Part shown: positions 1-55,569 of the stretch, one piece after another | Position numbering within the stretch: position 1 is the first letter of the stretch | How the letters are laid out: the number at the start of each line of letters is the position of its first letter | DNA from: Prevotella sp. | GTDB lineage: Bacteria > Bacteroidota > Bacteroidia > Bacteroidales > Bacteroidaceae | Reading direction: 5' to 3' | Assembly: GCA_017554105.1 (NCBI GenBank) | Contig: JAFZIY010000029.1 | Location: forward strand, 113,504-169,072 | DNA length: 55,569 nucleotides | Position numbers and translations under genes: made by a program | Notes under the pieces: model-generated | Told to the model about the DNA's origin: nothing | Databases searched by the model: none | The model's input: only the letters and a program-made list of their open reading frames with translations

Positions 1-2407
1 GCATGCCCTGACCAATCATTCGCAATCCCTTCTGCAGCGACTCCTCGAACGTACGTCCTATTGCCATTACCTCGCCTACGCTTTTCATTGACGACCCGAG
101 CAGGTGGTTTACGCCATGGAACTTCGAGAGGTCCCAGCGTGGTATCTTACATACCACATAGTCGAGTGCTGGCTCGAAGAATGCGCTGGTGGTCTTTGTC
201 ACCGAGTTCTTCAGTTCAAACAGTCCGTAGCCTATTCCGAGTTTGGCGGCGACGAATGCCAGAGGATAGCCGGTGGCCTTCGATGCCAGTGCTGACGAGC
301 GCGACAGTCGGGCATTTACCTCGATGACGCGATAGTCCTCCGACTGTGGGTCGAGGGCATACTGTACATTACACTCACCGACAATGCCGATGTGACGTAT
401 TATCTTTATTGCAAGTGCACGCAACTTATGATATTCGGTATTCGATAGCGTCTGACTCGGAGCCACCACGATGCTCTCTCCGGTGTGGATGCCCAGAGGG
501 TCAAGGTTCTCCATGTTGCAGACGGTGATGCAGTTGTCGTAGCGGTCGCGCACCACCTCATATTCAATCTCCTTCCAACCCTTCAGCGACTTCTCTACCA
601 GTACCTGTGGCGAGAAGGAGAAAGCCTCCTCGGCCTGCGCCAGCAGTTCCTCCTCGTTGTCACAGAAGCCGGAACCCAGACCGCCCAGTGCGTATGCGGC
701 ACGCAGTATGACGGGGAATCCCAGTCGTGCCGCCGCTTCCCTCACCTCGTCGATGGTCTCGCATGCGTGGCTCTTTATGGTTTTCACGCCAATCTCATCG
801 AGTCGTTGAACAAAAAGGTCACGGTCTTCGGTGTCGATGATAGCCTGTACGGGTGTGCCTAGTACCTTCACTCCGTACTTCTCGAGTACTCCCCGATGGT
901 AGAGTTCCACTCCGCAGTTCAATGCCGTCTGTCCGCCAAAGGACAGCAGTATGCCGTCGGGACGTTCCTTTTCGATGACACGTTCCACGAAATCCGCCTT
1001 TACAGGCTGGAAATAAACAACGTCCGCAACGTCTTTTGATGTCTGCACGGTAGCGATGTTGGGGTTGATGAGGACGGTCTCGATGCCCTCTTCCTTCAAT
1101 GCCTTCAGCGCCTGTGAACCGCTATAGTCGAACTCTCCCGCCTGTCCTATCTTCAGTGCACCGCTGCCCAGAAGCAGAACTTTTTTTGGTCGTTTGGGGG
1201 ATTGGTCATCTAGTGGTTTAGTGGTTTGGTCGTTTAGGGAAGTCACTACTGCGTAATTTGTTCCCAAACGACTAAACGACGAGTCTCCCAGTTTCCCAAT
1301 CTCATCACCAAGCATCCCTACAAACTCATCAAACATAAACTCGGTGTCGGTAGGTCCGCTGCATGCTTCAGGATGGAACTGTGCCGACATCCAAGGCTTT
1401 GTCTTGTGTCGTATGCCCTCGTTGGAACCATCGTTCATGTTGACGAAAAGCGGTTCCCAGTCGTCAGGCAGAGACTTGTCGTCAACAGCATATCCGTGGT
1501 TCTGCGATGTGATGAAGCACTGTGTCGTACCCACCAGTCGCACGGGTTGGTTATGGCTTCGGTGACCATATTTCAGTTTATATGTCTTTGCTCCCGCAGC
1601 CCTTGCCAGTAGTTGGTTGCCAAGGCATATTCCCATGCAAGGTCTGACGTTGTCGCTATTCAGGAATTTCCTGATATTCTCTACGGTTTTCTCGCATAGT
1701 TCAGGGTCGCCGGGGCCGTTGGCGAGGAATAGTCCGTCAAACTCCATCTGGTTGAAGTCATAGTCCCAGGGGACACGCACCACGTCGATGCCACGGCGAA
1801 GAAGACATCGTATGATGTTGGCCTTTACGCCACAGTCGACGAGAACCACTTTCTTTAGTTTAGAGTTTGCTACCGCTGTGGCATCTGGCTTGTAGGTAAT
1901 GACATCCTTGCAACTTACCTTCTCTACCCAGTTCACGCTTCCGTAGTCCTCGGTGTTTTTCTCGTCTCTTTCCTCTCCTGTCACCTCTATTCTTCCCATC
2001 ATCACGCCATTCTCTCTCAGCAGTTTGGTAAGACGTCGTGTGTCGATGCCTGTGATTGCGGGCACCTTCTCTCTCTTCAGCCATTCGCTAAGGCTCTCGC
2101 GTGCGTTCCAGTGCGAGTATGTCACGCTATAGTCGGCTACTACCAGTGCCTTCACATGTATGTGTTCGCTCTCCATCAGACTGGGCAGTCCGTTGGTTCC
2201 TATGTCGTCTGTCGGTACCCCGTAGTTGCCTACGAGCGGATACGTCATTGTCAGTATCTGTCCTGCGTAACTCGGGTCGGTAAGACTCTCGGGATATCCA
2301 GACAACGCGGTGCTGAATACCACTTCTCCTACCACATTCTTTTCATATCCGAATGACCATCCGGTGAATTTGCTGCCATCATTTAAAATAAGTGTTGCTT
2401 GTCTCAT
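1..2407 (-). CDS. carAB: Fused carbamoyl-phosphate synthase CarA-CarB (partial, runs off left edge)
   Basis: Makes carbamoyl phosphate from glutamine, bicarbonate and ATP for pyrimidine and arginine synthesis. The start at 2407 ([16 protein letters not shown]) lies two bases after the purF stop. Residues 1 to about 365 are the CarA glutaminase, with Cys261 in GICLGNQ and His345 and Glu347 in FHPE. From about residue 409 ([21 protein letters not shown], cut here) the same frame is the first ATP-grasp half of CarB, with about 394 CarB residues before the window edge; a whole CarB has about 1070. I read positions 1181-1345 codon by codon and found no stop between the two parts, so they form one polypeptide. 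CarA and CarB are normally separate proteins in bacteria, while the fused form is typical of eukaryotes. The linker, about residues 366-408, is largely repeat-derived ([19 protein letters not shown]). It is probably the last gene of a pyrG-purF-carAB operon. Confidence 0.93.
1188..1300. repeat. GGTCGTTTGG-type oligonucleotide repeat forming the CarA-CarB linker
   Basis: The stretch is built from variants of GGTCGTTTGGGG, GATTGGTC and CTAGTGGTTTAG. The 13-mer TCTAGTGGTTTAG here is the exact reverse complement of CTAAACCACTAGA in the pyrG insert near 4590, so both belong to one repeat family. It lies where the carA stop and carB start would be expected and is read through in frame. Confidence 0.8.
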
Positions 2408-2409
2408 TC

Positions 2410-4155
2410 TTATAATTGCATTTTTAATACATTTTCTACGAAGTTTACGAAAGCCTGGTTTACCATGCGTATTCCACCAGGAGTGGGGTAGTGCCCCGTG
2501 AAGTACCAGTCGCCAGGGTGGTTCGGACATGCCTCATGCAGTCCTTCAATGCTTTGGAACACCAGTTCCACAGCGGTCGTCATACCCTCAGGGCGAAGCA
2601 TGGAGACTATCTTCTGGTTGATTTCCTCCACGGAGAAAGGTGCGTATATGGCACGTACGTAGTTTTGCTCGTCGCCCTTCTCTGTTTGCTTGCATGCCCT
2701 GTATGTGTCGGCGATGAGCTGCTGCATGTTACGTTCCTTTATAAGTGCTATGGCAGCGCGGAAGGCGCACAGTTCCTCAAGTCTTGACATGTCGATGCCG
2801 TAGTAGTCGGGATATCTGATTTGTGGAGAACTGGACACCATAACTATCTTTTTTGGTTTCAGTCGGTCAAGAATCTTGAAGATGCTTTCCTTGAGCGTTG
2901 TACCTCTCACTATACTATCATCGATGATTACGAGGTTGTCTTTGTGTGGTCTGAGCGAGCCGTATGTGATGTCATAGACATGTGCCGCCAGGTCGTTTCT
3001 CTCGTTACCTTCCGCGATGAATGTCCTCAGTTTGATGTCCTTCCACACCACCTTTTCCATTCTCACGTCGTGGTTCAGTCGTCTTAGTCCGTCGGTCATG
3101 CCCCAGAATGCCACCTCCGCGGTGTTAGGAATGTATGAGAACACTGTGTTTTCGACATCACCGTCTATTGCCTTTATTATGGCTGGTGTGAGTTGTTCTC
3201 CCAGTCGTTTTCGTTCGATATAGATATCCCTGTCCGACCCTCTGCTAAAGTATATCCTCTCGAAAGAGCAGGCGCTGTAGTTCTTGGGCTCTATTATCTG
3301 CTGCAGAGTGACCGTTCCATTCTTCCTTACCATGAGGGCCTTGCCGGGTTGTAACTCGTGCACCTGCTGTGCCTCGATGTTGAATGTCGTTTGTATTACC
3401 GGTCTCTCAGATGCCAGAACCGCCACCTCGTCGTCGTAATAGTAGAAAGCGGGTCTTATTCCCCATGGGTCTCTGACGGCGAACATCTCACCGCTTCCTG
3501 TCATTCCGCACATGACGTATCCGCCGTCGAAGTGTGGCATGGTGGTTCTCAACACGTTGCCCATGTCAATGTTGTCCTCGATATACTGTGTGATGTCAGT
3601 GCCTTGCAGTCCATCCTGCTTTGCCATGCTGAACAGCCTTTCTGCCTCACGGTCGAGTCGGTGTCCCATCAGTTCGAGGGTGATGTAAGTATCGGCAAAG
3701 ATACGTGGCGACTGTCCCTGTGCCGTGATGAACTGGAACACCTCGTCGATGTTCGTCATGTTGAAGTTACCGCACAGACACAGGTTTTTCGCTCTCCAGT
3801 TGTTTCTTCTCAGGAAAGGATGAACGAAGGTCAGTCCACTTTTGCCTGTGGTGGAGTATCTCAGGTGTCCCATCAGCAACTCGCCAGTCATCGACGGGTT
3901 GACACGTGAGAAAATCTCGGTGATGGCATTCTTTCCTTCTGCCTTCTCACGAAACATATATTCGTGGCCAGGAGCCGTGGTAAGACTTACAGTAGCCAGT
4001 CCTGCCCCTTCCTGTCCACGATTGTGCTGCTTCTCCATCATGAGATAGAGTTTGTTGAATCCATAGCGCCATGTGCCGTACTTCCTCTCGTAGTATTCCA
4101 ACGGTTTGAGGAGTCGTATCATGGCCACGCCACACTCATGTTTCAGTTGTTCCAT
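2410..4155 (-). CDS. purF: Amidophosphoribosyltransferase (PurF family, long form)
   Basis: A glutamine PRPP amidotransferase family enzyme, catalysing the first step of purine synthesis. A seven-residue propeptide precedes Cys8 (HECGVAMI), the expected N-terminal nucleophile of the Ntn glutaminase domain. GHLRYSTTG (arginine loop), CGNFN and ADTY follow the glutaminase pattern. The C-terminal phosphoribosyltransferase domain carries the PRPP loop [12 protein letters not shown]. At 581 residues it is about 80-100 longer than standard PurF (near 470-510), and CGNFN replaces the usual HNGN. It may therefore be the long Bacteroidetes paralogue rather than the only PurF of the cell. It starts one base after the pyrG stop and ends two bases before carAB, so translation of the three is probably coupled. 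Confidence 0.88.
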
Positions 4156-4156
4156 A

Positions 4157-5818
4157 TCAGATGCAGGCTTTAATAAACGACATGAACAATGGGTGTGGAT
4201 GCAGTACGTTAGAGGAATACTCGGGGTGGAACTGCGTGCCGATGTACCAGCGCTTCTCAGGTATCTCTACTATCTCGACAAGGTTTGCGGCGGGGTTGAT
4301 ACCCACGCACTTCATACCCGCCTTTTCGTATTCGTCGAGGTAGGCGTTGTTGAACTCATAGCGGTGGCGGTGTCTTTCCTTAATCAGCGACACCTTGCCA
4401 TAGGCATCGTATGCGCGGCTGTCTTTTGCCAACTCGCACTCGTAGGCACCCAGTCGCATGGTGCCGCCCATCTGGGTGATGCTCTTCTGTTCCTCCATGA
4501 TGTCGATGACGTAGGTTGGTCGTTTTGGGGATTGGTCGTTTTGGGGATTGGTCGTTTGGTCGTTTGGTCGTTTGGGGGAGTTTCCTAAACCACTAGAAAA
4601 CTCTGCACTATTCGCATCCTTATACCCCAGCACGTTGCGAGCGAACTCAATCACCATCATCTGCATGCCCAGGCATATTCCGAAGGTGGGGATGTCGTTG
4701 TTCCGGGCATGTTCCGCGGCGATGATCTTACCCTCGATGCCTCGCTTGCCGAATCCGGGACAGATTACGATGCCCGCCATACCCTCGAGTTTTTCCGCTA
4801 CGTTCTCGCGTGTTATATTCTCGCTATTGATGAAATGTAGTCTCGCTTTCACGTCGTTGTAGATGCCAGCGAGGTTCAGACTCTCGCGGATGCTCTTGTA
4901 GGCATCCTGCAGGTCGTACTTACCTACCAGTCCGATGTGTACCTCGCGCTTGGCATTACGCTGCTTGTCAAGGAAGTCGTGCCATGACTTCATGGCGGGT
5001 GTCTCGCCGACAGGAATGCCTATCTTACGCATGATGGCAGCGTCAAGTCCCTGATGCTGCATGCTCACAGGCACCTCGTAGATACTCGGCATGTCCTCGC
5101 TCTGCACCACGCACTCCAGGTCAACGTTACAGAACGATGCCACTTTCATGCGCAGGGCATCTTCGAGATGCCGCTCAGTACGCAAAACGAGGATGTCGGG
5201 CTGGATACCCATCGACTGCAATTCCTTCACGCTGTGCTGCGTGGGTTTCGTCTTCAGTTCGTCGGCGGCTTTCAGGTAAGGCACGTATGTTAGGTGCACA
5301 CACACCGCATTACGGCCCAACTGCCACCGCAACTGTCGGATGGCCTCCATGAACGGTGCACTCTCGATGTCGCCGATGGTGCCGCCTACCTCGGTGATGA
5401 CGAAGTCCAACTGCTCGTTTTTCTCCTCCTCTCTCAGCATGCGACGCTTTATCTCGTCCGTGATGTGCGGCACCACCTGAATCGTCTTACCCAGATAGTC
5501 GCCGTGGCGCTCGCGGTCGATGACGGTCTTATAGATACGACCTGTGGTTATCGAGTTGTTGCGCGTGGTGTGTATGCCCGTAAAACGCTCGTAGTGACCC
5601 AGGTCGAGGTCGGTCTCCATGCCATCGATGGTGACATAGCACTCGCCGTGCTCGTAGGGGTTCAACGTCCCCGGGTCGATGTTGATGTAGGGGTCGAACT
5701 TCTGAATGGTCACTTTGTAGCCGCGTGCTTGCAGCAACATACCGATGCTGGCTGAGATGATACCCTTGCCCAAGGAAGATACCACGCCGCCTGTAACGAA
5801 GATGTATTTTGTGTTCAT
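4157..5818 (-). CDS. pyrG: CTP synthase with in-frame repeat insertion
   Basis: Converts UTP to CTP using glutamine and ATP. I place the start at 5818 (MNTKYIFVTGGVVSSLGKG), because the frame upstream adds 36 residues that overlap the amt gene and resemble nothing. The synthetase domain fills the first half. The C-terminal glutaminase has Cys382 in GICLGMQ and a late FHPEYSS. Length is 553 residues against the usual 535-540. The excess is residues 407-435, where NSPKRPNDQTTNPQNDQSPK is inserted between the expected KDANSAEF and YVIDIM segments, outside the recognisable catalytic motifs. The inserted DNA belongs to the same repeat family as the carAB linker. It lies 34 bases after amt1 and one base before purF, so it may be co-transcribed with the ammonium genes. 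Confidence 0.95.
   Translation of the reverse strand: MNTKYIFVTGGVVSSLGKGIISASIGMLLQARGYKVTIQKFDPYINIDPGTLNPYEHGECYVTIDGMETDLDLGHYERFTGIHTTRNNSITTGRIYKTVIDRERHGDYLGKTIQVVPHITDEIKRRMLREEEKNEQLDFVITEVGGTIGDIESAPFMEAIRQLRWQLGRNAVCVHLTYVPYLKAADELKTKPTQHSVKELQSMGIQPDILVLRTERHLEDALRMKVASFCNVDLECVVQSEDMPSIYEVPVSMQHQGLDAAIMRKIGIPVGETPAMKSWHDFLDKQRNAKREVHIGLVGKYDLQDAYKSIRESLNLAGIYNDVKARLHFINSENITRENVAEKLEGMAGIVICPGFGKRGIEGKIIAAEHARNNDIPTFGICLGMQMMVIEFARNVLGYKDANSAEFSSGLGNSPKRPNDQTTNPQNDQSPKRPTYVIDIMEEQKSITQMGGTMRLGAYECELAKDSRAYDAYGKVSLIKERHRHRYEFNNAYLDEYEKAGMKCVGINPAANLVEIVEIPEKRWYIGTQFHPEYSSNVLHPHPLFMSFIKACI
4514..4605. repeat. GGTCGTTTGG-type repeat inserted in pyrG
   Basis: About five degenerate copies of TTGGTCGTTT(T)GGGG(A) are followed by CCTAAACCACTAGA. 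The block is in frame with pyrG and encodes a proline-, asparagine- and glutamine-rich loop. It is related to the 1188-1300 repeat. Confidence 0.82.
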
Positions 5819-8025: not shown

Positions 8026-8040
8026 AACCTTCTAATTATC

Positions 8041-8083
8041 TTTAACTCCTAAACTCCTAAACTCTTTAACTCCTAAACTCCTT
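8041..8083. repeat. TAACTCCTAAACTCC oligonucleotide repeat after amt copy 2
   Basis: Four to five degenerate copies of AACTCCTAA fill the gap between the amt stop codon (8082-8084) and the porin start. The same family occurs at 29388-29447 and, inside argD, at 34416-34449. Confidence 0.8.
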
Positions 8084-9335
8084 AATTATAACACATTTCT
8101 CCATGTTCGTAAACATCGAGACCTTCTTCTTCAATGCGCTTGTCAACGCGCAGGCCATGCAGTTTCTTGATGCCATAGAACAGGGCGAAACCACAGGCGG
8201 CAGCCCAGAGGTCGATGATGAGGATGCCAAAGCACTCGGCACCGAAGAAACCCCAGCCGTGGCCATAGAAGGCACCATTGGAGGTAGAGAGTAATCCTGT
8301 CATCAGGGTGCCGAGGATACCGCAGACACCATGTACTGATGACGCACCTACTGGATCGTCGATATGGAGCTTATGGTCGATGAACTCGATGGCGAAGACC
8401 AGTACGATACCGCAGGCGAGACCGATGATTACGGCTCCGACGGGTGATACAAGGTCGCAGCCAGCGGTGATACCTACCAGTCCGGCCAGTACACCGTTGA
8501 GTGTCAGTGAGAGTGATGGCTTACCATACTTAAACCATGTGAGGAACATCGTTGCCGTACCACCGGCAGCAGCTGCGAGGTTGGTGGTCAGGAACACGTG
8601 GCTGATGGCGATGCGGTTTACCTCACCGCTTGCTGCCAACTGTGATCCTGGGTTGAAACCGAACCATCCCAGCCAGAGGATGAATACACCGAGGGCAGCC
8701 ATTGTCAGGTTGTGACCAGGAATGGCACGGCTATTGCCGTCCTTGGCATACTTGCCGATACGTGGACCAAGGGCCATGGCACCAATCAGGGCCAGCACAC
8801 CACCTACGCTATGTACAATGGCAGAACCAGCGAAGTCGTGGAACACGGCACCGAAAGTACTCATCATGAAACTATCGGCAGCATCGTTGCAGAGCCAGCC
8901 ACCGCCCCATGTCCAGTGACCTTCGATGGGGTAGATGAACAGTGAGATGACAGCACTATAGACGAGGTACATCGAGAACTTCGTGCGCTCGGCCATGGCA
9001 CCACTTACAATCGTGGCACTGGTGGCACAGAAGACAGTCTCGAAAATCAAGAATCCCTCTACGGGCAGGTCGCCCTTATAGAAAGTGAGGTCGCCCCAGT
9101 TAGGCGCTCCGATAAAACCAGCGCCCTCGCTGCCGAACATAAAGCCGAAGCCGAGGAAGAAGAACAACAATGAGCCGAACATAAAATCAACGAAGTTCTT
9201 CATCAAGATGTTGGCCGTGTTCTTACTACGTGTGAAACCAGCCTCACACAGTGCGAAGCCCGGCTGCATCCAGAAAACCAACATGGCTGCCAATAGCATC
9301 CATACAGTATCGAGTGATATTCCTATTTCGTTCAT
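8082..9335 (-). CDS. amt: Ammonium transporter (Amt family), copy 2
   Basis: A second ammonium channel of 417 residues. It starts MNEIGISLDTVWMLLAAMLV and, like other Amt proteins that lack a cleaved signal, enters the membrane directly. Motifs include MQPGFALCEAGFTRSKN, DFAGSAIVHSVGG (pore Asp and first His) and SSVHGVCGILGT (second His). It ends EEGLDVYEHGEMCYN, the usual Amt C-terminal GLD..EHGE tail that contacts the channel and PII. It is the first transporter after glnK, separated only by a 129-base gap filled by a paired palindromic repeat. Confidence 0.95.
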   Translation of the reverse strand: MNEIGISLDTVWMLLAAMLVFWMQPGFALCEAGFTRSKNTANILMKNFVDFMFGSLLFFFLGFGFMFGSEGAGFIGAPNWGDLTFYKGDLPVEGFLIFETVFCATSATIVSGAMAERTKFSMYLVYSAVISLFIYPIEGHWTWGGGWLCNDAADSFMMSTFGAVFHDFAGSAIVHSVGGVLALIGAMALGPRIGKYAKDGNSRAIPGHNLTMAALGVFILWLGWFGFNPGSQLAASGEVNRIAISHVFLTTNLAAAAGGTATMFLTWFKYGKPSLSLTLNGVLAGLVGITAGCDLVSPVGAVIIGLACGIVLVFAIEFIDHKLHIDDPVGASSVHGVCGILGTLMTGLLSTSNGAFYGHGWGFFGAECFGILIIDLWAAACGFALFYGIKKLHGLRVDKRIEEEGLDVYEHGEMCYN

Positions 9336-9350: not shown

Positions 9351-9460
9351 TGCCCCCTAAGTTAAGGGGATGGGGGTCTGAACGACCACCCTGGTTAATA
9401 ATGTTATCCTTTTGGAGTCTGCGATTATTCAGACCCCTGTCGCCCCCTACTTAGGGGGCA
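9351..9460. repeat. Paired REP palindrome (BIME-like), copy 1
   Basis: Two outward arms of the form TGCCCCCTAAG...GGGGTCTGAA and TTCAGACCCC...CTTAGGGGGCA form a long inverted repeat of about 110 bases. Each arm end is itself palindromic (CCCCCTAA/TTAGGGGG). A second copy lies at 33284-33410 and shares the inner GGAGTCTGCG. It fills the glnK-amt gap. Confidence 0.85.
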
Positions 9461-9464
9461 TACT

Positions 9465-27127: not shown

Positions 27128-28111
27128 TTATAGCGACTCCAGCATGCGCTTTATCACCACCGAAGCACTTATCTCACGGTTGGCAGCCTCTGGGATGACG
27201 AGCGAGTTGGCGCTTTCTATCACATCATCGGTGACGATGAGACCGCGGCGAACGGGCAGGCAGTGCATGAACTTACCGTTGTTGGTCCATGACATGTGCT
27301 CTGCATCCACTGTCCACGACATGTCCTTGCTGGTTATCTTACCATAGTCAGCGGGGTTGGTAACGCCTGGATTGCTCCAGTTCTTGGCATAGATGAAGTC
27401 TGCTCCCTCGAATGCCTCACGCTGGTTGTAGGTCACTTTAGCGTTGCCAATGAACTTCGGGTCGAGTTCATAGCCTTCAGGATGAGTGATGACGAGGTCG
27501 ATGTCCTCAGCGGCATTCATCCACTGAGCGAATGAGTTAGGCACGGCCTGTGGCAAAGCGCGGCAATGTGGAGCCCAGGTTAGGACGACCTTTGGTCGAG
27601 CCCCCACCAAACCTCCCCCCGTAGGGGAGGCTTCTTTTATCGTAATCAAATCGGCAAAAGCCTGAAGAGGGTGCACTGTGGCGGTCTCCATTGCAAAGAC
27701 GGGCTTGCCACTGTATTTTATGAACTGGTGCAGAACGGTCTCGGCATAGTCATACTCGCGGTCGGTAAGTCCAGCAAATGAACGCACTCCGATGAGGTCG
27801 CAGTAGCATCCCATCACGGGGATAGCCTCAAGCAGGTGCTCACTCTTGTCACCGTCCATTATCACTCCGCGCTCCGTCTCCAGTTTCCATGCCCCGGCAT
27901 TGACGTCAAGCACTATGACATTCATTCCAAGATTCATCGCTGCTTTCTGTGTCGAGAGTCGTGTGCGCAGCGAGTTGTTGAAGAATATCATCATCAGCGT
28001 CTTGTTCTTTCCAAGATGCTGGTATTTAAACCTGTCGTTCTTTATCTCTTGTGCTTCGGCGAGTGCTTTGCGGAGGTCGCCGATATCCTCTACGTTAATA
28101 AAACTCTTCAT
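27128..28111 (-). CDS. argF': N-succinylornithine carbamoyltransferase (SOTCase type)
   Basis: Transfers the carbamoyl group to an N-acylated ornithine in the arginine pathway of Bacteroidetes. Start at 28111 (MKSFINVEDIGDLRKALAEA); the longer frame uses a TTG in the upstream repeat. It has 327 residues against about 318 for the Bacteroides fragilis enzyme, which it resembles closely throughout as I recall that sequence. The carbamoyl phosphate motif is SLRTRLST, with HPLQ, HCLPVRR and MDGDKSEHLLEAIP also present. Residue 90 is Ser where B. fragilis SOTCase has Pro and acetylornithine enzymes have Glu. Residues 161-171 (ASPTGGGLVGA) are encoded by a GC-rich palindromic repeat replacing a shorter loop. 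It is last of the argD-to-argF' run, 31 bases after proA. Confidence 0.92.
   Translation of the reverse strand: MKSFINVEDIGDLRKALAEAQEIKNDRFKYQHLGKNKTLMMIFFNNSLRTRLSTQKAAMNLGMNVIVLDVNAGAWKLETERGVIMDGDKSEHLLEAIPVMGCYCDLIGVRSFAGLTDREYDYAETVLHQFIKYSGKPVFAMETATVHPLQAFADLITIKEASPTGGGLVGARPKVVLTWAPHCRALPQAVPNSFAQWMNAAEDIDLVITHPEGYELDPKFIGNAKVTYNQREAFEGADFIYAKNWSNPGVTNPADYGKITSKDMSWTVDAEHMSWTNNGKFMHCLPVRRGLIVTDDVIESANSLVIPEAANREISASVVIKRMLESL
27599..27632. repeat. GC-rich REP palindrome inside argF'
   Basis: On the coding strand GCCTCCCCTACGGGGGGAGG is followed by TTTGGTGGGGGCTC, the same architecture as the REP at 40989-41020. It is in frame and encodes SPTGGGLVG between KEA and ARPKVV. Confidence 0.8.
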
Positions 28112-28142: not shown

Positions 28143-29387
28143 TTATGCTCGCACTTGTCCTTCTCCCTCAATGAGCCACTTGTAGGTGGTAATCTCTTCA
28201 AGTCCCATCGGCCCGCGTGCACCCAATTTCTGAGTAGAGATGCCTATCTCTGCACCGAGTCCGAACTGTGCCCCGTCGGTGAAACTTGTAGGAGCGTTCC
28301 AATAGACGCAGGCGGCGTCAACACGCTGCTGGAATTGCCGTGCCACACTCTCGTCGCTTGTTATGATACTCTCGCTATGTCCCGAACCATAACGGTTGAT
28401 ATGGTCGAGGGCTTCAGCAAGATTGTCAACAGTCTTTATCGCCATCTTATAATCCATGAACTCTGTTCCGAAACTCTCTTCGGTGGCATGTTGTAACAGC
28501 GTTTCAGGGTATGAGCCGTCGAGAGCCTTAAATGCACGTTCGTCAGCATATATGATGACGTTCTTCTCTGCCAGTGGCTTACATACCTTATTTATATTTG
28601 TAAGTTGCTGAGCATTGACGATGAGGCAGTCGAGAGCATTGCATACGCTGACGCGTCTTGTCTTGGCATTGCATACGATGGCTGTTGCCATCTCAATGTC
28701 AGCGTCTTTGTCAAGATATGTGTTCACAACGCCTGCTCCCGTCTCTATGACAGGCACCTTTGCAGTGTCGCGAACGAAGGTTATCAGTCGCTTGCTACCA
28801 CGCGGAATGCACAGATCGATATATCCTACGGCTGCCAGCATCTCGCCTGTGGCTTCATGAGTGGCTGGTAGCAGTTGTATTGCTTCCTCCAAACCATATT
28901 CCCGAAGGATATTCTTGATGAGTGCCACACCGGCACGGTTGCTGTCGTCGGCATCCTTGCCGCCTTTCAGCACACAGGCATTGCCTGTCTTGAAACAGAG
29001 GGAGAAGACGTCATAGGTGACGTTGGGACGTGCCTCATAGACAACACCGATTACTCCGAACGGCACACTGATGCGACGCAGTCGTAATCCGTTTGGCAGT
29101 GTCGACTGTCTCAGCGTCTTGCCGAGCGGACTCTCTAATGCCGCCACATGACGCATGTCTGATGCTATGTCTTCAAGGCGTTTCTCTGTCAGTTGCAGAC
29201 GGTCGTACAGCGGATTCTGTCTGTCCATGCGCTCAAGGTCCTTAGCGTTCTCACGCAACAGCAGTTCCTTGTTTCCCACGATGGCATCAGCCACCTTCAG
29301 AAGAATCTCTTTCTTCTGCTCATCACTGACGAGAGCCAGTTCGTGACTCGCCGCCTTCGCCTTTATCAATAATCCTTCTATTTCCAT
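28143..29387 (-). CDS. proA: Gamma-glutamyl phosphate reductase
   Basis: Reduces glutamyl phosphate to glutamate semialdehyde with NADPH, the second step of proline synthesis. It has 414 residues, the family length. FGVIGVVYEARPNVT is the cofactor-binding region, GGKDADDSN follows it, and the catalytic cysteine is in RRVSVCNALD. The C-terminal LGARGPMGLEEITTYKW is highly typical. It lies 55 bases after proB, the gap being entirely a repeat, and 31 bases before argF'. It is co-directional with proB and proC, so the whole proline pathway is present in this cluster. Confidence 0.96.
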   Translation of the reverse strand: MEIEGLLIKAKAASHELALVSDEQKKEILLKVADAIVGNKELLLRENAKDLERMDRQNPLYDRLQLTEKRLEDIASDMRHVAALESPLGKTLRQSTLPNGLRLRRISVPFGVIGVVYEARPNVTYDVFSLCFKTGNACVLKGGKDADDSNRAGVALIKNILREYGLEEAIQLLPATHEATGEMLAAVGYIDLCIPRGSKRLITFVRDTAKVPVIETGAGVVNTYLDKDADIEMATAIVCNAKTRRVSVCNALDCLIVNAQQLTNINKVCKPLAEKNVIIYADERAFKALDGSYPETLLQHATEESFGTEFMDYKMAIKTVDNLAEALDHINRYGSGHSESIITSDESVARQFQQRVDAACVYWNAPTSFTDGAQFGLGAEIGISTQKLGARGPMGLEEITTYKWLIEGEGQVRA

Positions 29388-29447
29388 AACTTCTAACTTC
29401 TCGCTCGGCTATGCCGCTTTGCTTGCAAAGAACTCCTAACTCCTAAC
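29388..29447. repeat. CTCCTAACTCCTAACTC repeat between proB and proA
   Basis: The gap is composed of TTCTAACTTCTCGCTC, the palindromes CGGCTATGCCG and CTTTGCTTGCAAAG, and AACTCCTAACTCCTAACTC. It provides the last codon and stop of proB (AGT TAG). Same family as 8041-8083 and 34416-34449. Confidence 0.78.
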
Positions 29448-30519
29448 TCATACAAAGATAGTCGTAGTGAACTAGTGGCTTTTGGTTGTGTTTCCCTATC
29501 AGTGCCAGTGCGCTGTCGGCATTGAAACTGCTCCTGCCCACTGCTATCTCGTTGTCTTGTTTGTCGCGAATGCTTATAATGTCACCCTCCTCGAAGTCGC
29601 CTTCTATGGATTCCACGCCGACAAAGAGCAGGCTAACTGCCTGTTTCTTCTCATGCAATGCTTCAACGGCACGGTCGTTTATTCTTACTATGCCCTTGGC
29701 AAAACTGCCGCTGTGCGCAAGCCATTTCTTCATCTGCGATGCGTTGCGGTCGCTGGGAATAAACTCAGAGTGTACAACGTTCTCTGGTTCTTCGGCAAGT
29801 TGGATGAGAATGTTCTCACGCTTGCCGTTAGCGATAATCACGCGGATGCCTTCTTCTGCCACCTTGCGGGCTATGGCACATTTGGTGAGCATGCCGCCGC
29901 GTCCAAATCCGCTCTTTTCTGTCTGTATGTGGTCGGCAAGATCGCTCTCAGGCTCCACAATCTCAATAACTCGAGACTCGGGATCATCAGGCGCTCCATT
30001 GTATATACCGTCGATGTTGCTTAGTATCACCAGAGTGTCGGCGTCCATCATTGCTGCTATCAGACCCGACAACTCATCGTTGTCGGTGAACATCAGTTCG
30101 GTGATGCTCACGGTGTCGTTCTCGTTGACGATAGGAATCACGCCGTTCTCAAGCATCACACTGATGCATGCACGCTGGTTAAGATACTCCTGACGGGAAG
30201 AGAAGTTCTCCTTCATAGTAAGCACCTGACCGATGCAGATGCCATGTTCGCGGAAAAGGTCATAGTAGAGTCCCATGAGTTTCACCTGACCAATGGCGGA
30301 GAACAACTGTCTCTGTTCCACTGAGTCGAGATGCTGCTGTGTTTGCAGTTCGCCCTTTCCCGATGCCACAGCACCCGAGGATACCAATATCACCTCATAG
30401 TCCATCTTGCGCAATGCCGCAACCTGGTCAACCAGTGACGACATCCGTGTCACGTCAAGTTTTCCATCCTGACGCGTCAGCACGTTGGAGCCTATCTTAA
30501 CAACGATTCTTTGTCTCAT
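29443..30519 (-). CDS. proB: Glutamate 5-kinase
   Basis: Phosphorylates glutamate at the gamma carboxylate, the first and usually proline-inhibited step of proline synthesis. It has 358 residues. An amino-acid kinase domain starts RIVVKIGSNVLTRQDGKLDV and includes IPIVNENDTVS and GRGGMLTK. A PUA domain (KGIVRINDRAVEALHEKKQA) fills the last 90 residues, as in enteric ProB. The final residues MS and the stop codon are provided by the downstream repeat, so the native C-terminus may have been slightly altered. It follows the small membrane protein gene by six bases. Confidence 0.96.
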   Translation of the reverse strand: MRQRIVVKIGSNVLTRQDGKLDVTRMSSLVDQVAALRKMDYEVILVSSGAVASGKGELQTQQHLDSVEQRQLFSAIGQVKLMGLYYDLFREHGICIGQVLTMKENFSSRQEYLNQRACISVMLENGVIPIVNENDTVSITELMFTDNDELSGLIAAMMDADTLVILSNIDGIYNGAPDDPESRVIEIVEPESDLADHIQTEKSGFGRGGMLTKCAIARKVAEEGIRVIIANGKRENILIQLAEEPENVVHSEFIPSDRNASQMKKWLAHSGSFAKGIVRINDRAVEALHEKKQAVSLLFVGVESIEGDFEEGDIISIRDKQDNEIAVGRSSFNADSALALIGKHNQKPLVHYDYLCMS

Positions 30520-33283: not shown

Positions 33284-33410
33284 TAGCCCCCTAAGTTAGG
33301 GGGGTGGGGGTCTGAACAAGCGAAAACCAGACTGTATTTTAGATTGTGAATAATTTATAGACAAGGAGTCTGCGCCTGTTCAGACCCCCAACCCCCTGAC
33401 TCAGGGGGCT
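33284..33410. repeat. Paired REP palindrome (BIME-like), copy 2
   Basis: AGCCCCCTAAGTTAGGGGGG...GTCTGAAC and GTTCAGAC...CCCCTGACTCAGGGGGCT form a long inverted repeat with a 60-base interior. Related to 9351-9460 in both arms and in the inner GGAGTCTGCG, but the central loops differ. It fills the proC-regulator gap. Confidence 0.85.
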
Positions 33411-33423
33411 ATTGGACTCGTGA

Positions 33424-34212: not shown

Positions 34213-35357
34213 TTCATTACCTTTTTAAGTTTCTCAATAAACTCGTCCACATCGTCCTTCGACAGGCAGAGTGGCGGCAGCAGACGCAGTACGTTGGTAC
34301 CGGCACAACCCGTGAAGCAATGCTGCTCATAGACGAGGCGCTGGCGCACTTCCTTATGTGGCACCGACAGGTCAACACCTATCATCATTCCGCGACCGCG
34401 AACATCCAGTATTTTAACTCCAAACTCCTCACTTCTCGCTCCTAACTCCTTCAGTTGTTCGATAAGATACTCACCTACGAGATGGGCATTCTCAACGAGT
34501 CCTTCCTCCTCAAACACATCAAGAACGGCAAGGGCTGCAGCACAAGCGAGGTGATTTCCACCAAACGTTGTACCCAGTTGTCCGTACTCAGGCTTGAACT
34601 CTGGTGATATGAGCACTCCACCCATAGGGAATCCGTTGGCGATACCTTTGGCAACAGTGATAATGTCGGGACGTATGTCGAGCCACTGGTGGGCGAAGAA
34701 CTTACCGCTACGACCATATCCGCACTGTATCTCATCACAAATCAATATCGTGCCGTATTGCCTGCAAAGTCTTTCCAGACCTTGTGCAAACTCCTTTGTC
34801 GCCATCTTGATGCCACCGACACCCTGGATGCACTCCAGGATAACAGCGCACACATCGCCTTTCTGCAGTTCTGCCTCCCATGCCGCAAGGTCGTTAAGCG
34901 GCAGATATGTCACGTGACCGTTGGCATTTATCGGTGCGATAATCTTAGGGTTGTTGGTAACCTCCACTGCAAGTGATGTCCTGCCATGGAACGCTTTCTC
35001 GGCAGAGAGCACACGGGTACGGCCATTTGTGAACGAAGCCAGTTTGAGAGCATTCTCGTTTGCCTCTGCTCCGGAATTGATGAGGAACAACTGGTAGTCG
35101 TCATAACCGCTGATTCTCCCTAATCTTTCGGCAAGACGCACCTGCAAATCGTTCTTCACTGAGTTGCTGTAGAACCCTATCTTGTTCAGTTGTTCACTGA
35201 CTGTCTCTACATAATGGGGATGGCAGTGGCCGATGCTTATCACCGCATGACCGCCATAGAGGTCAAGATATTCCTGCCCCTTGTCGTCCCATACCTTACA
35301 ACCTTTTCCCTCTACGATGTTAACATCAAATAGGGGATAAACGTCGAATAACTTCAT
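34209..35357 (-). CDS. argD: N-acylornithine aminotransferase with in-frame repeat
   Basis: A PLP enzyme exchanging amino groups between glutamate and N-acylglutamate semialdehyde in arginine synthesis. Because argF' is of the succinylornithine type, the substrate is probably N-succinylornithine. It has 382 residues. GGHAVISIGHCHPHYV, FINSGAEANENALKLA-like LINSGAEANENALKLA and the PLP lysine in ITVAKGIANGFPMGG are all present. Residues about 304-314 (LGARSEEFGV) come from a TAGGAGCGAGAAGTGAGGAG repeat in the loop before VRGRGMMIG. It has its own promoter within a block duplicated upstream of cotH, and probably starts the long argD-proC-...-argF' operon. Confidence 0.94.
   Translation of the reverse strand: MKLFDVYPLFDVNIVEGKGCKVWDDKGQEYLDLYGGHAVISIGHCHPHYVETVSEQLNKIGFYSNSVKNDLQVRLAERLGRISGYDDYQLFLINSGAEANENALKLASFTNGRTRVLSAEKAFHGRTSLAVEVTNNPKIIAPINANGHVTYLPLNDLAAWEAELQKGDVCAVILECIQGVGGIKMATKEFAQGLERLCRQYGTILICDEIQCGYGRSGKFFAHQWLDIRPDIITVAKGIANGFPMGGVLISPEFKPEYGQLGTTFGGNHLACAAALAVLDVFEEEGLVENAHLVGEYLIEQLKELGARSEEFGVKILDVRGRGMMIGVDLSVPHKEVRQRLVYEQHCFTGCAGTNVLRLLPPLCLSKDDVDEFIEKLKKVMK
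34416..34449. repeat. CTCCTAACTCC-type repeat inside argD
   Basis: AACTCCAAACTCC, TCACTTCTCGC and TCCTAACTCC read as GGAGTTAGGAGCGAGAAGTG and so on on the coding strand. In frame, giving ELGARSEEFGV. Same family as the intergenic copies at 8041 and 29388. Confidence 0.78.
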
Positions 35358-35384
35358 GATGATTGCTTGAAAAGTTAATTACAC

Positions 35385-35513
35385 GGTGCAAAATTACCGT
35401 AAAAATCTGAGAATGTGTAACTAATTGTCTATTTTTTTACTCTTTGTCTGCCTTTGTGCCCATTTCTAACATCCATATGCGACATTTATTCATTTGCATC
35501 TGTTAGAATCAGC
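35385..35513 (-). promoter_or_regulatory. argD promoter within a 130-base duplicated block
   Basis: CAAAATTA at 35389-35396 is TAATTTTG on the minus strand (TAnnTTTG), 31 bases before argD. The whole block from GGTGCAAAATTACC to TTAGAATCA aligns with 38209-38338 upstream of cotH at roughly 85 percent identity by eye with one gap. Conserved inner parts include GTGTAACTA and TTTTTTTACTCTTTGT. Confidence 0.72.
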
Positions 35514-38208: not shown

Positions 38209-38338
38209 CGGTGCAAAATTACCTTAAAAAACCGAGAAAGTGTAACTATTTGCCATTTTTTTACTCTTTGTATGCCGTTGTGTCCATTTCCAGCATTGAT
38301 ATGACACATTTATTCGCTTGCATCTGATAGAATCAATA
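38209..38338 (-). promoter_or_regulatory. cotH promoter, second copy of the 130-base block
   Basis: CAAAATTA at 38213-38220 (TAATTTTG on the minus strand) lies 21 bases before the cotH start. The block is homologous to 35385-35513, from GGTGCAAAATTACC to ATAGAATCA. Confidence 0.72.
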
Positions 38339-39988: not shown

Positions 39989-41044
39989 TCAGAATGCGGA
40001 AGCTTTCAGTCTCAATCCTGTGTCTTCAGGTAGAGAGAACATGATGTTCATATTCTGTACCGCCTGTCCTACAGCACCCTTCAGTAGGTTGTCGATAACG
40101 GAAGTCACCACCAGTTTGTTGCCGAATTTATCGCAGTGGACAAGACACTTGTTGGTGTTCACCACCTGTTTCAGGTCTATCGGCTTGTCAACATAATGTG
40201 TGAATGCCGCATCTTTATAGAATTCCTTATAAGCATTGATGATATCCTCGATTTCCACATCAGTCTTTATCACGCTTGTCACATAGATTCCGCGTGCGAA
40301 ATCGCCACGATATGGTATGAAATCGATGCTCACGTTACCACCGTCATCTATTGGGGAGCCTATAATGGGACTGCCATCTGGGCGCACCTCATTAAGACTT
40401 TGACAGATTTCGTGCAGATGCTGATGGGTGAATAGCTTGTATGTACTCATGTTGTTGTTGCGCCAGGAGAAGTGGGTTGTTGCGCCAGGCTTCTGACCAG
40501 CACCCGTGCTTCCCGTGATACCGTTCACCGCGATGTCGTCATTGATAATACCCATCTTTGCCGCAGGCAGCAATCCAAGTTGGATGCATGTTGCGAAGCA
40601 TCCGGGATTTGCAACGTGCATGGCATGGGCAGTCTGCTCTTTGTGAATCTCCGGGAGTCCATAAACATAGTCGTGATTACCCTTGATGCGGAAATCCTGC
40701 GCCAAGTCTATAATCTTGACGTTGGCAGGGATAGTGTGCTCTTTAAGGAAAGCCTCGCTCTTTCCATGCCCGAAGCAGAAGAACACCACGTCAACCTCGT
40801 CGAAAGGCATGTCGGAAGTGAACCTCAGGTCGGTGTCGCCATAAAGACCTTCATGCACTTCGGTGACAGGATTGCCAGCATTGCTCTCACTGTTGGCAAA
40901 CACAATCTTTGCCTTGGGATGGTTCAGCAGCAGGCGAATCAACTCACCTCCAGTGTAACCTGCGGCACCGAGAATGCCTACTCGAACCGACCCCCTCCCA
41001 GCCTCCCCAAAGGGGAGGTGAGTGCTGTTGTCATTGTTGGTCAT
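39989..41044 (-). CDS. argC: N-acyl-gamma-glutamyl-phosphate reductase with repeat-derived N-terminus
   Basis: Reduces N-acylglutamyl phosphate to the semialdehyde with NADPH. It has 351 residues. The family start should be about M-KVGILGAAGYTGGELIRLL. Here that segment is preceded by MTNNDNSTHLPFGEAGRGSV, of which THLPFGEAGRGS is encoded by a GC-rich REP palindrome and MTNN overlaps the last codons of the DUF559 gene. No ATG lies at the usual position, so the inserted element provides the start. Catalytic Cys is in NPGCFATCIQLGL, and GSTGAGQKPG also fits. It is last of argR-GNAT-argG-DUF559-argC. Confidence 0.93.
   Translation of the reverse strand: MTNNDNSTHLPFGEAGRGSVRVGILGAAGYTGGELIRLLLNHPKAKIVFANSESNAGNPVTEVHEGLYGDTDLRFTSDMPFDEVDVVFFCFGHGKSEAFLKEHTIPANVKIIDLAQDFRIKGNHDYVYGLPEIHKEQTAHAMHVANPGCFATCIQLGLLPAAKMGIINDDIAVNGITGSTGAGQKPGATTHFSWRNNNMSTYKLFTHQHLHEICQSLNEVRPDGSPIIGSPIDDGGNVSIDFIPYRGDFARGIYVTSVIKTDVEIEDIINAYKEFYKDAAFTHYVDKPIDLKQVVNTNKCLVHCDKFGNKLVVTSVIDNLLKGAVGQAVQNMNIMFSLPEDTGLRLKASAF
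40989..41020. repeat. REP palindrome at the argC N-terminus (right arm of the DUF559 unit)
   Basis: ACCCCCTCCCAGCCTCCCC, AAA, GGGGAGGTG on the plus strand. Inverted relative to the TGACCCCACCCCAACCCTCC-type REP on the other side of the DUF559 gene. Confidence 0.82.
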
Positions 41045-41427: not shown

Positions 41428-41503
41428 TTCTTTCTCCCTCCCTTTGGGAGGGTTGGGGTGGGGTCACTCTCCCCTCCCTCGCAGGGAGGGGTTGGGGGAG
41501 AGT
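41428..41503. repeat. Double REP palindrome upstream of the DUF559 gene
   Basis: Two neighbouring palindromes: CTCCCTCCCTTTGGGAGGG with TTGGGGTGGGG, and CCCCTCCCTCGCAGGGAGGGG with TTGGGGGAGAG. They fill the gap from the argG stop to the DUF559 start. Confidence 0.85.
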
Positions 41504-46574: not shown

Positions 46575-46647
46575 ATTAGATTCCATGCTATAAAAACGTG
46601 ACAAAACAGCATTTATTATGCTATTGGAATGTAATACATATCAAACC

Positions 46648-46694
46648 GTCGAACAATGTTATTAACTTTGTCGAACAAAGTTAATAACATTGTT
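46648..46694. repeat. Two 22-base units forming a 19-base perfect inverted repeat
   Basis: GTCGAACAA starts at 46648 and again at 46670, exactly 22 bases apart. The arms 46652-46670 and 46676-46694 are perfect complements of 19 bases, loop TCGAA. There is no T-tract and the flanking genes diverge, so it is unlikely to be a terminator. Confidence 0.85.
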
Positions 46695-46802
46695 AAGCCA
46701 TTCGATACCTTTCGCAAACTGATTGATGTCCAGTCATTTGCCAAGTCGTCATTTTTCGACTCGGAAAAGGGTGTTAAATAATGCTAAATAACTGATGAAA
46801 TG

Positions 46803-48405: not shown

Positions 48406-48426
48406 AATTCTAATACTCTCCTTCAA

Positions 48427-50861: not shown

Positions 50862-50944
50862 TTGTATAAACTATGAAACAAGGGAATAAAAAAGAGGGAA
50901 AAAACGTGGTTTCGTCAAACGATACCCTATTTTTCTTCAAATGG

Positions 50945-51002
50945 AACCCTAGCCCAACGACTCCTCGCTTCTGTAGGGGAGGGGAGTCGTTGGAAATAGG
51001 GT
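50945..51002. repeat. Long inverted repeat between the HTCS and BspA-like genes
   Basis: ACCCTA-CCAACGACTCC and GGAGTCGTTGG-AAATAGGGT pair across a loop containing TGTAGGGGAGGGG, a REP-like core. It follows the HTCS stop by about 40 bases. No T-tract, so a terminator role is uncertain. The 305-base gap 50737-51041 has no gene. Confidence 0.7.
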
Positions 51003-51041
51003 CTGAAAAGTTTATAATTGCGGGTGTCTTTTTCTGTGTAA

Positions 51042-54000
51042 TTATCCGTTGTCAGTATTCTTCTCGTTCCTTACATATTCGCTTGGCTTGCAGCCAAACT
51101 CCTCGGAGAAGTAACGGGAGAATATCTTTGGATTGTTGAAGCCCACTTTGTATGCCACCTGTGAGACGGGGAGTGCCGGGTCGGCTTCCATAATCTTACG
51201 TGCACGTTTCAGACGCATCGTACGGATGAAAATAATGGGCGACTGACCTGTGATGAACTTCAACTTGCGGTTGAGGCCTGTGCGATGGAGACCAATGATG
51301 GAGGCAAGTTGGTCGACATTGAAGTCGGGCTCGTGCATGTGGTCGTTGATTACGCTTATCACGTTTTGCAGCAGTTGCTGGTCGATGGTGGTGATACCTA
51401 ATGCTTCCGGGTCCTCATCAGACTGGCTGCTGAAGACTTCTCGCGCCGACTGTCGCCGTTGCATCCATGAATTGATGCGCAGTCGTAGGATGTCGATATT
51501 GAAGGGCTTCGTGATATAGTCGTTGGCTCCCATCTGCAAGCCTTTCAACTCGTCTTCCTCAAGAGCCTTGGCCGTGAGCAGGATAACAGGGATATGGCAG
51601 AGGTTAACGTCTTCTTTGATGCGTCGTGTCAGTTCAAGTCCGTCGATGCCCGTCATCATGACGTCGCTCACCACCACGTCGATGTCGGTTTGTTCATTGT
51701 AGAGTATCTCAAGAGCCTCTTCTCCGCTTGATGCCGTGAGGACGTTATGTTCTGATTGCAATGAACTGGTCATGAAACTGAGCAGGTCGGTGTTGTCGTC
51801 GACGATGAGGATGGTGGCGGGATTAGTGTGCTGGGTGTTGGGGGCTGGGTGTTGTGAGCTAGGTGTTCTTTCTCCGCTTTCCTTTGAAAGCGCCCCTTCG
51901 GGTCGAGCGGGGTGTTGGATGTTGGTGACTGGAGATGGAACAGCCTTCTCTACGGGTATGCTTATGGTGAATACTGCGCCATGGGGTTGGTTGTTGGTAG
52001 CTGTGACGGTCCCGCCCATTAGTTCGGTGTATTGCTTGACGATGCTCAGTCCTATCCCGCTGCTCTCGTGGCTGCTGTGCAGTTGTTGTGAGTAGTAGAA
52101 GCGCTCGAAGATGTGTGGGAGGTCTTTCTCGCTGATTCCATTGCCGGAGTCGGCCACGCGAAGGGTGAGCCGGTTGCCGTTGTCGGTGGCCTTCAGAGTG
52201 CATGCAAGGCTGATGGAACCATTGTCGGGAGTGAACTTGAACGAGTTAGACAGCAGGTTGTTGACGATTTTGCTTAACTTGTCGTTGTCGATATTCACGA
52301 TGTGTTGTTCGTCGGGCAGACAGACGCTGAAGTCGATACCGCGTTTTTCGGCCTGTGCCGTATATGCCTCGGTCAACTGACGGAGCATCTCGCCGATGTC
52401 GGTAGGTGAGGTCTGGAGTTTCTCGTAGGGCGCCTCGAGCAGTCGCACGTCAAGCATCTGATTGACCAGCGAAAGCAGGCGTGTGGCGTTCTTCTTCACG
52501 ATGGAGAGCGTTTTGAGTGTGTCGTCTTCGGTGCGGCGCTTGCTGAAACGGCTGATGAGATCGTCAACGGGTGCAATGATGAGGGTGAGCGGAGTGCGCA
52601 GGTCGTGGTTCACGTTGGTGAAGAACTGTGTCTTCATCTTGTTGAGTTCTTCTTCCTGTTTCTTCTGTTGTTCGATACGACGGATTTCACGTCGGTAGTT
52701 CCGCTTGTTTCGGAAATAGCGATAGAGTCCGGCACAGAGCAGTGCACCAAGGACCGTCCAGATGGCTATGCCCCATAGCGAGCGCCAGAATGGGGGTCTT
52801 ATGTGGATGTTGAGCAAATGGAACTGCTCGGCAGTATCGTCACCCGTGGGCGATGTGCTCACCATCAGTTCGTATTTGCCAGGAGGAAGGTTGGAGAGGA
52901 CGATTCGCTCGTTGGCTACGGGTAGCCATTCTTTCGAGTATCCTTTCAGGTTGTAGTAGTAAGGATCTGCTGTCTCGGTCATGAAGCCTCGCGGACGGCA
53001 TCCTACGACGAGGTTTTTCTCTTCGTGGCTGAGATTCAGTTCCTTGATATATATAATGTCGCCCTCGATGCCGTTTTCATGTTTGTTGTCTTCCGAATAG
53101 GGTTGTTGTATGACTCCGTTGATGCGCAGCATCGTGATAATCGGTGACTGTGATGGCGTATCGCGCTCGGTGTCTTCGGCAAGCAACTGTGGGTTGAACC
53201 TGATGAAGCCGCCGTCGGTGCCTGCCACCATGTTCCCGTCGGGTAGGGCATAGAGGGCGCGGACGTTGTAATGGAATCCGTTCTGGATGTTGGTCAGATA
53301 TTTGCTGTAGCTGAAATGGCTGCCGTCGGTGGTGATACGCACCAGTCCCTGGTCGGTGGTGCACCATATGTTGTCGTTCTTGTCGGCACAGATGGAAGAG
53401 ACGATGTATTTCTCCATCTCTTTGAGGGTGTGTGTCTTTCCTGTGGTTGTCTCATAGATGTAAATAGGCGAGTGGTTGATGTTACTGAGAGCCCAGAGCC
53501 ACCCATGTTTGTCAACGAAGTTCCTGCGTTGTCCTTCCAGCATCTTGTTTTTCGGTCCGAGTGCTGATAAAGGTATGTGTTTTTGCGCGAGTGTGGCGGC
53601 GTTTATCTCATAGATATAGTCGTTGGTTACGGCATAGAGCAGTCCATTATGTGATGCAAGGTTGTTGATCCATGGGTGGTCGGTCGGTATGTTTTCTGTC
53701 TTACCTGTCTGCGGGTCAATGGATACGATGCCTTTGCCGAGCAGAGCCACGAACAAACGTCCTCCGGCAATAGGCTGCACGATGGAGTAGGGCGAGTCGC
53801 CAGGGAACAGCCGGCGTCCGTCGTCGGTAAGCAGTCCCTCGTTATAGATGCCTGTCCACAGGCGTTTCTGGCTGTCGGTGAATATTGATACGACGGAACT
53901 ACCACGGTGCCGGTTCTCCAGAATGGACATGTCGGCTGAGTTCTCGACGAGGAACATGCCTCCGTCTTCAGAGCCGGCCCAGAAAGAGTGTTCATCTTTG

Positions 54001-55115: not shown

Positions 55116-55164
55116 GAGTTAATATATAGATAGATATTTGGTTATTGAATACATGTATTCTCTG

Positions 55165-55197
55165 CAAAATTAGAAATATAATACTTAATATGACAAA
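55165..55197 (-). promoter_or_regulatory. HTCS promoter
   Basis: Minus-strand -7 TAATTTTG (55165-55172) and -33 TTTG (55194-55197) with 21 bases between. A 15-base palindrome TGTATCAATGATACA lies upstream at 55223-55237. Confidence 0.75.
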
Positions 55198-55457
55198 TAG
55201 GTGTATTAATTGAGTGCCGATTTGTATCAATGATACATTCGGCCTGTAAAAATAATTTATTTGGGACGTTCCAAGGTTGAAACAGTAGTGTTCTTTAGGT
55301 ATCAGTCCCAATATTGGTGGTAGCAACATACGACATGTTCATCATTAATTGCTCTCCCTTATATATAATATAATAATGTATAGCCTGTATTTTCCTTTTC
55401 CTGTTTTGTTGTGATTTTCAAAAAATCGATTTTTTCTGAAAAAATATCCTGAAATAT

Positions 55458-55488
55458 TTTGCTGTTTCGGATATTATCAGTACCTTTG
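55458..55488 (+). promoter_or_regulatory. Strong promoter at the right edge
   Basis: TTTG at 55458-55461, 19 bases, TACCTTTG at 55481-55488. Full consensus match. It drives transcription out of the window. The preceding 55240-55457 shows no gene. Confidence 0.85.
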
Positions 55489-55569
55489 CACTCGCTTTCC
55501 GAAAAACGGGCGTCCGCCCGGTCGCTTCGGTAGCGTTTGAGAAGGAGTTCTTTGAAAGATTTCTATAAG
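55489..55569 (+). ncRNA. Probable rRNA operon leader (partial)
   Basis: After the promoter there is a hairpin CGGGCG/CGCCCG (55507-55520), then GAGAAGGAGTTCTTTGAAAG, which resembles the boxA-type sequence (TTCTTTGA) that precedes 16S rRNA in Bacteroidetes. No open frame is visible. The 16S gene itself would lie just beyond the window. Confidence 0.5.

Follow-up and report, generated by a model that had tools for sequence, protein, structure and literature searches.

In-frame tracts in enzymes and regulators of Prevotella probably derive from several small interspersed repeat families

Six genes in a 55,569-nucleotide stretch of a 3.12-Mb Prevotella genome in 32 contigs, referred to here as the window (G000:C27:113504-169072), contain short tracts that belong to repeat families or resemble them. 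The genes are carA (fused to part of carB), pyrG, argF', argD, argC and the regulator gene HTCS, and in all of them the reading frame is open throughout the tract, without a stop. Across the loci compared, about half of the inserts are related to intergenic DNA, their presence is specific to lineages and the same loops are hit by different families; in the window's own genome, repeat arrays are depleted inside genes. We consider it very likely that the tracts are copies of several small interspersed repeat families, which inserted frequently and of which selection left the tolerated, in-frame copies in genes. The original prediction of in-frame tracts in all six genes is thus borne out, and the pattern extends beyond these genes.

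All tracts in the window genes lie on the minus strand. The carA–carB linker (1184-1330) comprises 49 amino acids, with carA on one side and the N-terminal portion of carB on the other; it contains octamers of the AAACGACC family as inverted arms (1194-1229 and 1264-1299, 72% complementary). The pyrG insert SSGLGNSPKRPNDQTTNPQNDQSPKRPT (4514-4597) is an octamer array at a site where most relatives have about 8 residues, so that octamer arrays account for this insert and for parts of the linker. In argF', which we take to encode an N-succinylornithine-type carbamoyltransferase, an alignment of 11 sequences locates the loop tract ASPTGGGLVGA (27599-27631), with 10-nt arms that are 90% complementary. 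The argD tract KELGARSEEFGVK (34413-34451) is of a heptamer (AACTCCT) family and matches four intergenic stretches, the best with E 1e-5. The tract NSTHLPFGEAGRGS lies in the N-terminal region of argC (40988-41029), and many relatives align with this protein only from residue 18-20 onward. In HTCS, the linker between the kinase and receiver parts (51816-51941) consists of CAACACCC-type units and a nested element, PARPEGALSKESGERT, which matches one intergenic stretch with E 8e-11. No inverted arms were found around the argD, argC or HTCS linker tracts.

Membership in repeat families, as originally predicted, holds through intergenic matches for argD and HTCS and through octamer counts and arrays for pyrG and the carA–carB linker; for argF' and argC, the assignment to a G-rich palindrome family was made by eye, together with alignments. 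A further tract, which the prediction had not listed, is a probable worn copy of a GCGGNAGCAAATT arm within carA (TAVANSKLK; 1853-1879, minus strand), and two relatives (L034 and L081) have AAANSSLFTLHSS at the same position. Alignments suggest that the tract sites are loops. An AlphaFold2 model of pyrG with its insert, computed from 25 sequences, had a mean pLDDT of 40.7, too poor to place loops.

The relation between inserts and intergenic repeats was examined across the fetched loci with 123 inserts (pyrG 64, carA 37, gat 21, proC 1; gat is our label for an amidotransferase-type gene at window positions 2413-4155). This count leaves out 48 amtB inserts, whose alignment probably mixes paralogues, and a single argR insert; proB was represented by three sequences. 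At a threshold of E 1e-3, intergenic DNA from other loci is matched by 60 of these inserts (pyrG 33, carA 22, gat 5, proC 0), compared with 0 of 615 control segments. The controls are same-length segments from conserved pyrG columns, taken from randomly picked pyrG sequences for the inserts of other genes, and the intergenic library comprises 239 kb with boundaries from a simple gene caller made for this analysis. Inserts of at least 45 nt also fold more strongly than controls: z is below -2 for 18 of 54 inserts and for 5 of 80 controls (p 1.3e-5), and the median z is -1.16 for inserts and -0.24 for controls. By inspection, about 32-34 residues in L043 and L044 correspond to a complete pair of inverted G-rich palindromes.

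Within the window's own genome, a sample of 449 kb (14% of the genome, window included) contains 28 coding segments that match intergenic DNA of the sample at the threshold of E 1e-3, compared with 1 when codons are shuffled. Sorted by eye, 12 of these are repeats, including those of argD and HTCS, 9 look like pieces of related genes and 7 are unclear; the pyrG, carA–carB, argF' and argC tracts fell below the threshold in this test. The octamer AAACGACCAAACGACC occurs 54 times in the 3.12-Mb genome with up to 2 mismatches, as opposed to 4 for the reversed pattern, and with N at two places it occurs 8 times in the window, where 0.34 are expected. When up to 1 mismatch is allowed, 22 of the 120 genomes in the genus contain it, and in a few it is heavily amplified (75 in G058). 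An orientation bias of the octamer in genes was considered: the unit is hydrophilic one way, yet the copies are 10 sense and 10 antisense, and we make no claim of such a bias.

One family is a hairpin of heptamers. By inspection, its layout is (AGTGAAG)n-AATTTGCTNCCGC, a spacer, and GCGGNAGCAAATT-(CTTCACT)n, with a fixed end and inverted arms that often occur in pairs, for example 47 to 83 nt apart. In 2.6 Mb, the GCGGNAGCAAATT element has 36 distinct matches and the reversed pattern 0. With up to 2 mismatches, 52 of the 120 genomes in the genus have the right arm, at most 63 times in a genome and 3 times in the window's own; its reversed control is found in 0 of 120, and outside the genus a single match occurs in 1 of 197 other genomes of the order (G230). 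In G058, coding sequence flanks 10 of 56 arms on either side, which places them inside open coding frames, and inspection resolves 6 elements in 5 genes. As named by eye (names given so are based on motifs rather than on a family search), the hosts are a GH2-type enzyme with two elements, a DNA polymerase IV-motif protein, a membrane protein, one more gene and pyrG.

Of the in-gene arm matches in the loci compared, 21 of 24 in sense and 29 of 30 in antisense orientation share a single phase. The 54 in-gene matches against 88 others are not a genome rate, as part of the loci were fetched with the same pattern. The four out-of-phase matches look like chance, and at least three in-phase ones (the first L100 row, L053 and the first L076 row) may be chance too. 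Antisense arms have stops in most of their other frames; sense arms are, by inspection, open in all three. The single phase of the sense arms therefore fits two readings: the whole hairpin enters in the only frame in which it is open, or selection acts on the peptide.

Comparison with orthologues shows that the tracts vary among relatives. In the closest relative, G028, chosen by argC (88% identical), the tracts are absent or different from those of the window in all six genes, and partly family-related in argC and HTCS. Its pyrG has an ordinary loop; its carA–carB linker, argF' and argD have sequences other than the window's; the start of its argC is of similar kind but of different sequence; and its HTCS (58% identical) carries the octamer-like part in another form and lacks the nested element. 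The original prediction had named as evidence against itself the same residues in all orthologues and no similar repeats elsewhere, and this was not what we found.

In a wider comparison, the 80 named loci found with the window pyrG (81-87% identity in the best segment) come from rumen and gut Prevotella and relatives and include P. communis E15-14, P. ruminicola KHT3, Xylanibacter ruminicola and many metagenome-assembled genomes. The pyrG set comprises 117 distinct complete sequences from loci L002-L130 and the window. In it, 40 sequences hold 55 inserts of at least 8 residues in sparse columns, and a gap-length rule gives 45 carriers. The window insert, at residues 444-471, is unique among 46 sequences compared there, most of which have about 8 ordinary residues there and a few other inserts. 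The site after ITDEIKRRMLR (gap 167-170) has 28 carriers and at least 20 Fitch changes, counted irrespective of branch support on a FastTree phylogeny of the pyrG core columns that was rooted at its midpoint. At the turn before ERHRHRYEFNN, gap 512-514 has 17 carriers with 14 changes and gap 509-510 has 5 carriers with 5 changes; what occupies this turn differs between genomes and may be heptamers (AAANSSLFTLHSSL), G-rich palindromes (SELSTPLPHREGQG) or something else. Further insert sites lie near 302-311 (L044, L047) and at 443-470. A separate observation is that G117 has two pyrG genes (contigs C36 and C21), 85% and 79% identical to that of the window.

Inserts occur in some other genes as well. 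Carriers number 19 of 81 sequences for gat, 25 of 44 for carA, 1 of 18 for proC and 1 of 17 for argR, and the argC of L144, L149 and L150 has extra residues at a second loop. A GH2-type gene of the window's own genome (C27:1111-4185) has G-rich elements between WDWVDQGL and LYGGDFGD, and its homologue in G058 has a heptamer element between the same residues, with a 66-nt tandem duplication seen by inspection. Filled and unfilled loops occur in close pairs, L011 and L092 (93.2% identical) and L111 and L112 (93.0%), and in these the native loop looks replaced. Between L091 and L109, two loci with 97.1% identity in pyrG, a carA tract differs by three 7-mers (21 nt, 7 residues), which indicates that arrays also change by whole units. 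Also seen were in-frame G-rich tracts in genes that by eye are gltB-like (glutamate synthase; L113, L118) and dapF-like (diaminopimelate epimerase; L100, L130).

The original prediction left two options, insertion biased toward tolerated sites or strong selection after frequent insertion, and the distribution of arrays favors the latter. In the 449-kb sample, tandem 7-mer arrays occur 12 times between genes, 7 times at gene edges and 2 times inside genes; tandem 8-mer arrays occur 7 times between genes and 2 times inside, and three shuffles contained no 7- or 8-mer arrays. With the 7 edge arrays left out, the density of such arrays per base is about 27-fold lower inside genes (4 arrays) than between them (19). 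Frequent insertion and purifying selection suffice to explain this depletion; targeting, although possible, is not needed. The presence of different families at the same loops across genomes likewise fits tolerance by the protein better than a sequence-specific target.

In the mechanism we propose, families of G-rich palindromes or of 7- and 8-base unit arrays, often as inverted pairs, would spread across genomes within this group of Prevotella. Copying may proceed by a transposition-like or template-switching process on hairpins, and arm length would shift by slippage. Copies between genes would be mostly harmless, whereas those within genes would be lost unless they keep the frame, lack stops and lie at a tolerant loop, linker or end. 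Surviving copies would become extra residues and then shrink, wear down or change their number of units.

One of the tracts is the linker of the carA–carB fusion. What the original prediction called carAB does contain an in-frame tract, but the gene is carA fused to the first 560 residues of carB, whose part of the frame (window 1-1183; G000:C27:113010-116033) thus ends at about the middle of a large subunit of usual length. No lower-identity homologue that might be the other carB half was found among the open reading frames of the loci compared. In 28 of 44 carA reading frames, the frame continues into carB, through 28 distinct linkers; of the remaining 16, 13 are unfused, L109 and L121 lie at a contig end, and L034 is fused in another alignment. 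The fusion is therefore variable within the genus. The linker is highly variable in 30 aligned sequences, and by eye many versions are repeat-like. A comparison of these linkers with intergenic DNA (12 of 28, against 20 of 140 controls) was not used, as the controls were cut from carA and, by eye, most of their hits overlap carA inserts.

There is a small chance that the inserts are selected for use, as protein linkers such as that of the carA–carB fusion, as spacers or as RNA hairpins that tune expression. The many fused carA frames, each with its own linker, and the stronger hairpins of the inserts are in keeping with this, but sequence, family and length vary among relatives at one site, 72 of 117 pyrG sequences have no insert, and the 13 unfused carA frames do without the fusion. 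Marginally less probable is local slippage in loose linkers, with a likeness to intergenic repeats that is due to composition only. Slippage would explain the whole-unit change in carA and the 66-nt duplication in the G058 GH2-type gene, and the 63 of 123 inserts without an intergenic match leave room for it. It does not account for the matches of the other 60 with none among the controls, for the conserved non-repetitive end GCGGNAGCAAATT next to the arrays, or for the same octamer occurring 54 times in one genome. Simple sequence repeats vary in unit number at a fixed locus without dispersal, while here the units vary and the families are dispersed.

Two other explanations are hardly credible. 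Tracts might be present in genes but bypassed in expression, as reported for palindromes of a yeast mitochondrion mentioned in PMC6649704; bypassed DNA would not require the stop-free, single phase of the in-gene copies. An assembly or binning artefact could be suspected from the many metagenome-assembled genomes among the relatives, but G116 is one 3.45-Mb contig, 99% complete, and its pyrG (L042) has inserts at two loops. G058 and the window's genome are both about 99% complete, and the latter has a single pyrG match.

Several points weigh against insertion of repeats followed by selection. Besides the unmatched inserts in the 239-kb library, among which gat stands out with only 5 of 21 matched, no inserts occur in argG (0 of 19), proA (0 of 15) or a GNAT gene (0 of 18), and proC has just one, which makes the distribution across genes uneven. 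In several places the original loop seems to have been replaced rather than simply split, and by eye no target-site duplication was found in 16 site comparisons, in which the nearest sequences are 7-17% diverged. No transposase is tied to the window families, as the two Y1 genes of the window's genome lie beside other palindromes. Finally, that the tracts are read as extra protein residues, which differ between species, is a probable reading of the sequence.

Among known systems, the parallel drawn originally with Rickettsia palindromic elements (RPEs) is apt as a way of working: the repeats lie in frame in conserved enzymes, and inverted arms occur in one family or more. RPEs are palindromic interspersed repeats found in frame in conserved genes and also between genes (Ogata et al. 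2000/2002; described in PMC2229807 and PMC3733652), and the reference list of PMC2229807 includes a report on Wolbachia. The Prevotella repeats resemble them in being interspersed, in frame and also intergenic; palindromes are seen for the heptamer element and some G-rich pairs, not for every tract. They differ in comprising several unrelated families, in their 7- and 8-mer arrays, in the same loops being hit by different families, in the gene-fusion linker and in their rumen and gut Bacteroidota host, the named relatives being Prevotella and Xylanibacter rather than Rickettsia. In our reading they work like RPEs; we do not claim membership. When five sources were scanned with Rfam at gathering scores, a tRNA was the sole match. 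As originally claimed, several unrelated families lie in frame in genes, here within one genus. Among the open-licence papers listed by our searches, no title or abstract opening reports in-frame repeats in Prevotella, which is no proof of absence.

REP/REPIN sequences with RAYT (Y1) transposases, with intragenic REPs reported in O. terrae and R. conorii (PMC3733652), are likewise short palindromes that often form inverted pairs and lie mostly between genes, sometimes within them. The Prevotella families differ in having no linked Y1 transposase in the window's own genome, where neither Y1_Tnp gene is flanked by the same repeat. These genes have flanks of their own (L171, about 1400-2030, and L172, about 1300-2090) with inverted palindromes (GCCCTTTCAGGGC; TAGGGGCGAACCCC pairs) that look REPIN-like by eye. 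Beside the Y1 gene of L171, a TonB-receptor-like gene has a G-rich tract (L171, 721-790) seemingly in frame, the gene name and frame being assigned by eye. Heptamer direct repeats TAACTGA in Beggiatoaceae, Cyanobacteria and five Bacteroidetes, as described in PMC4679880, share tandem 7-mers, a mainly intergenic location and a patchy distribution; Prevotella differs in its other units, 8-mers, inverted pairs and in-frame copies. In Nematomorpha mitochondria, inverted repeats within functional coding genes are gained and lost between species, and the authors call them distinct from other coding structures; according to PMC6649704 these are perfect and mitochondrial, whereas the Prevotella repeats are interspersed families shared with intergenic DNA. 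PMC9067536 reports palindromic candidates overlapping cas genes.

Between the genes of the window, several unstranded copies illustrate the families. A GGGGGTCTGAAC palindrome pair lies at 9352-9463 and a second copy at 33284-33411, with 44-nt arms that are 86% complementary; G-rich palindromes CCCTCCC/GGGAGGG lie at 41433-41503, a AACTCCTA octamer array at 8039-8085 and a heptamer tract AACTTCT/AACTCCT at 29387-29449. The commonest family in the intergenic sample is a separate one, that of the 12-mer CAAAGTTAATAA (inverted, with a period of about 22 bases; window 46639-46707, C27 and C15), with 22 intergenic copies and 0 in genes; by eye it has stops in its frames. Positions 35384-35511 and 38209-38335, upstream of two different genes, are 83-85% identical and are perhaps a shared promoter region.

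Most known cases of in-frame selfish repeats come from Rickettsia and a small number of other bacteria. What is new, as far as our literature search shows, is how many families take part, that they repeatedly occupy the same loops of basic enzymes, and which host group they are found in. A large genus with cultured members displays many stages together, with filled and unfilled loops, several families per loop, whole hairpins and worn remnants, and its carA–carB fusion has repeat-like linker DNA. This offers an opening for measuring which protein sites tolerate insertion and how new linkers arise; it also calls for caution, since Prevotella protein alignments and annotations may contain translated repeats. 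A more tentative idea, which we regard as possible but doubtful, is that the elements are adapted to translation: unrelated families would have come to lack stops along their full length in a usable register, as is seen for the heptamer hairpin and supposed for the others, and would so survive in essential genes. If true, such elements would give Prevotella a continuing supply of new loops, linkers and gene fusions, of which carA–carB may be one.

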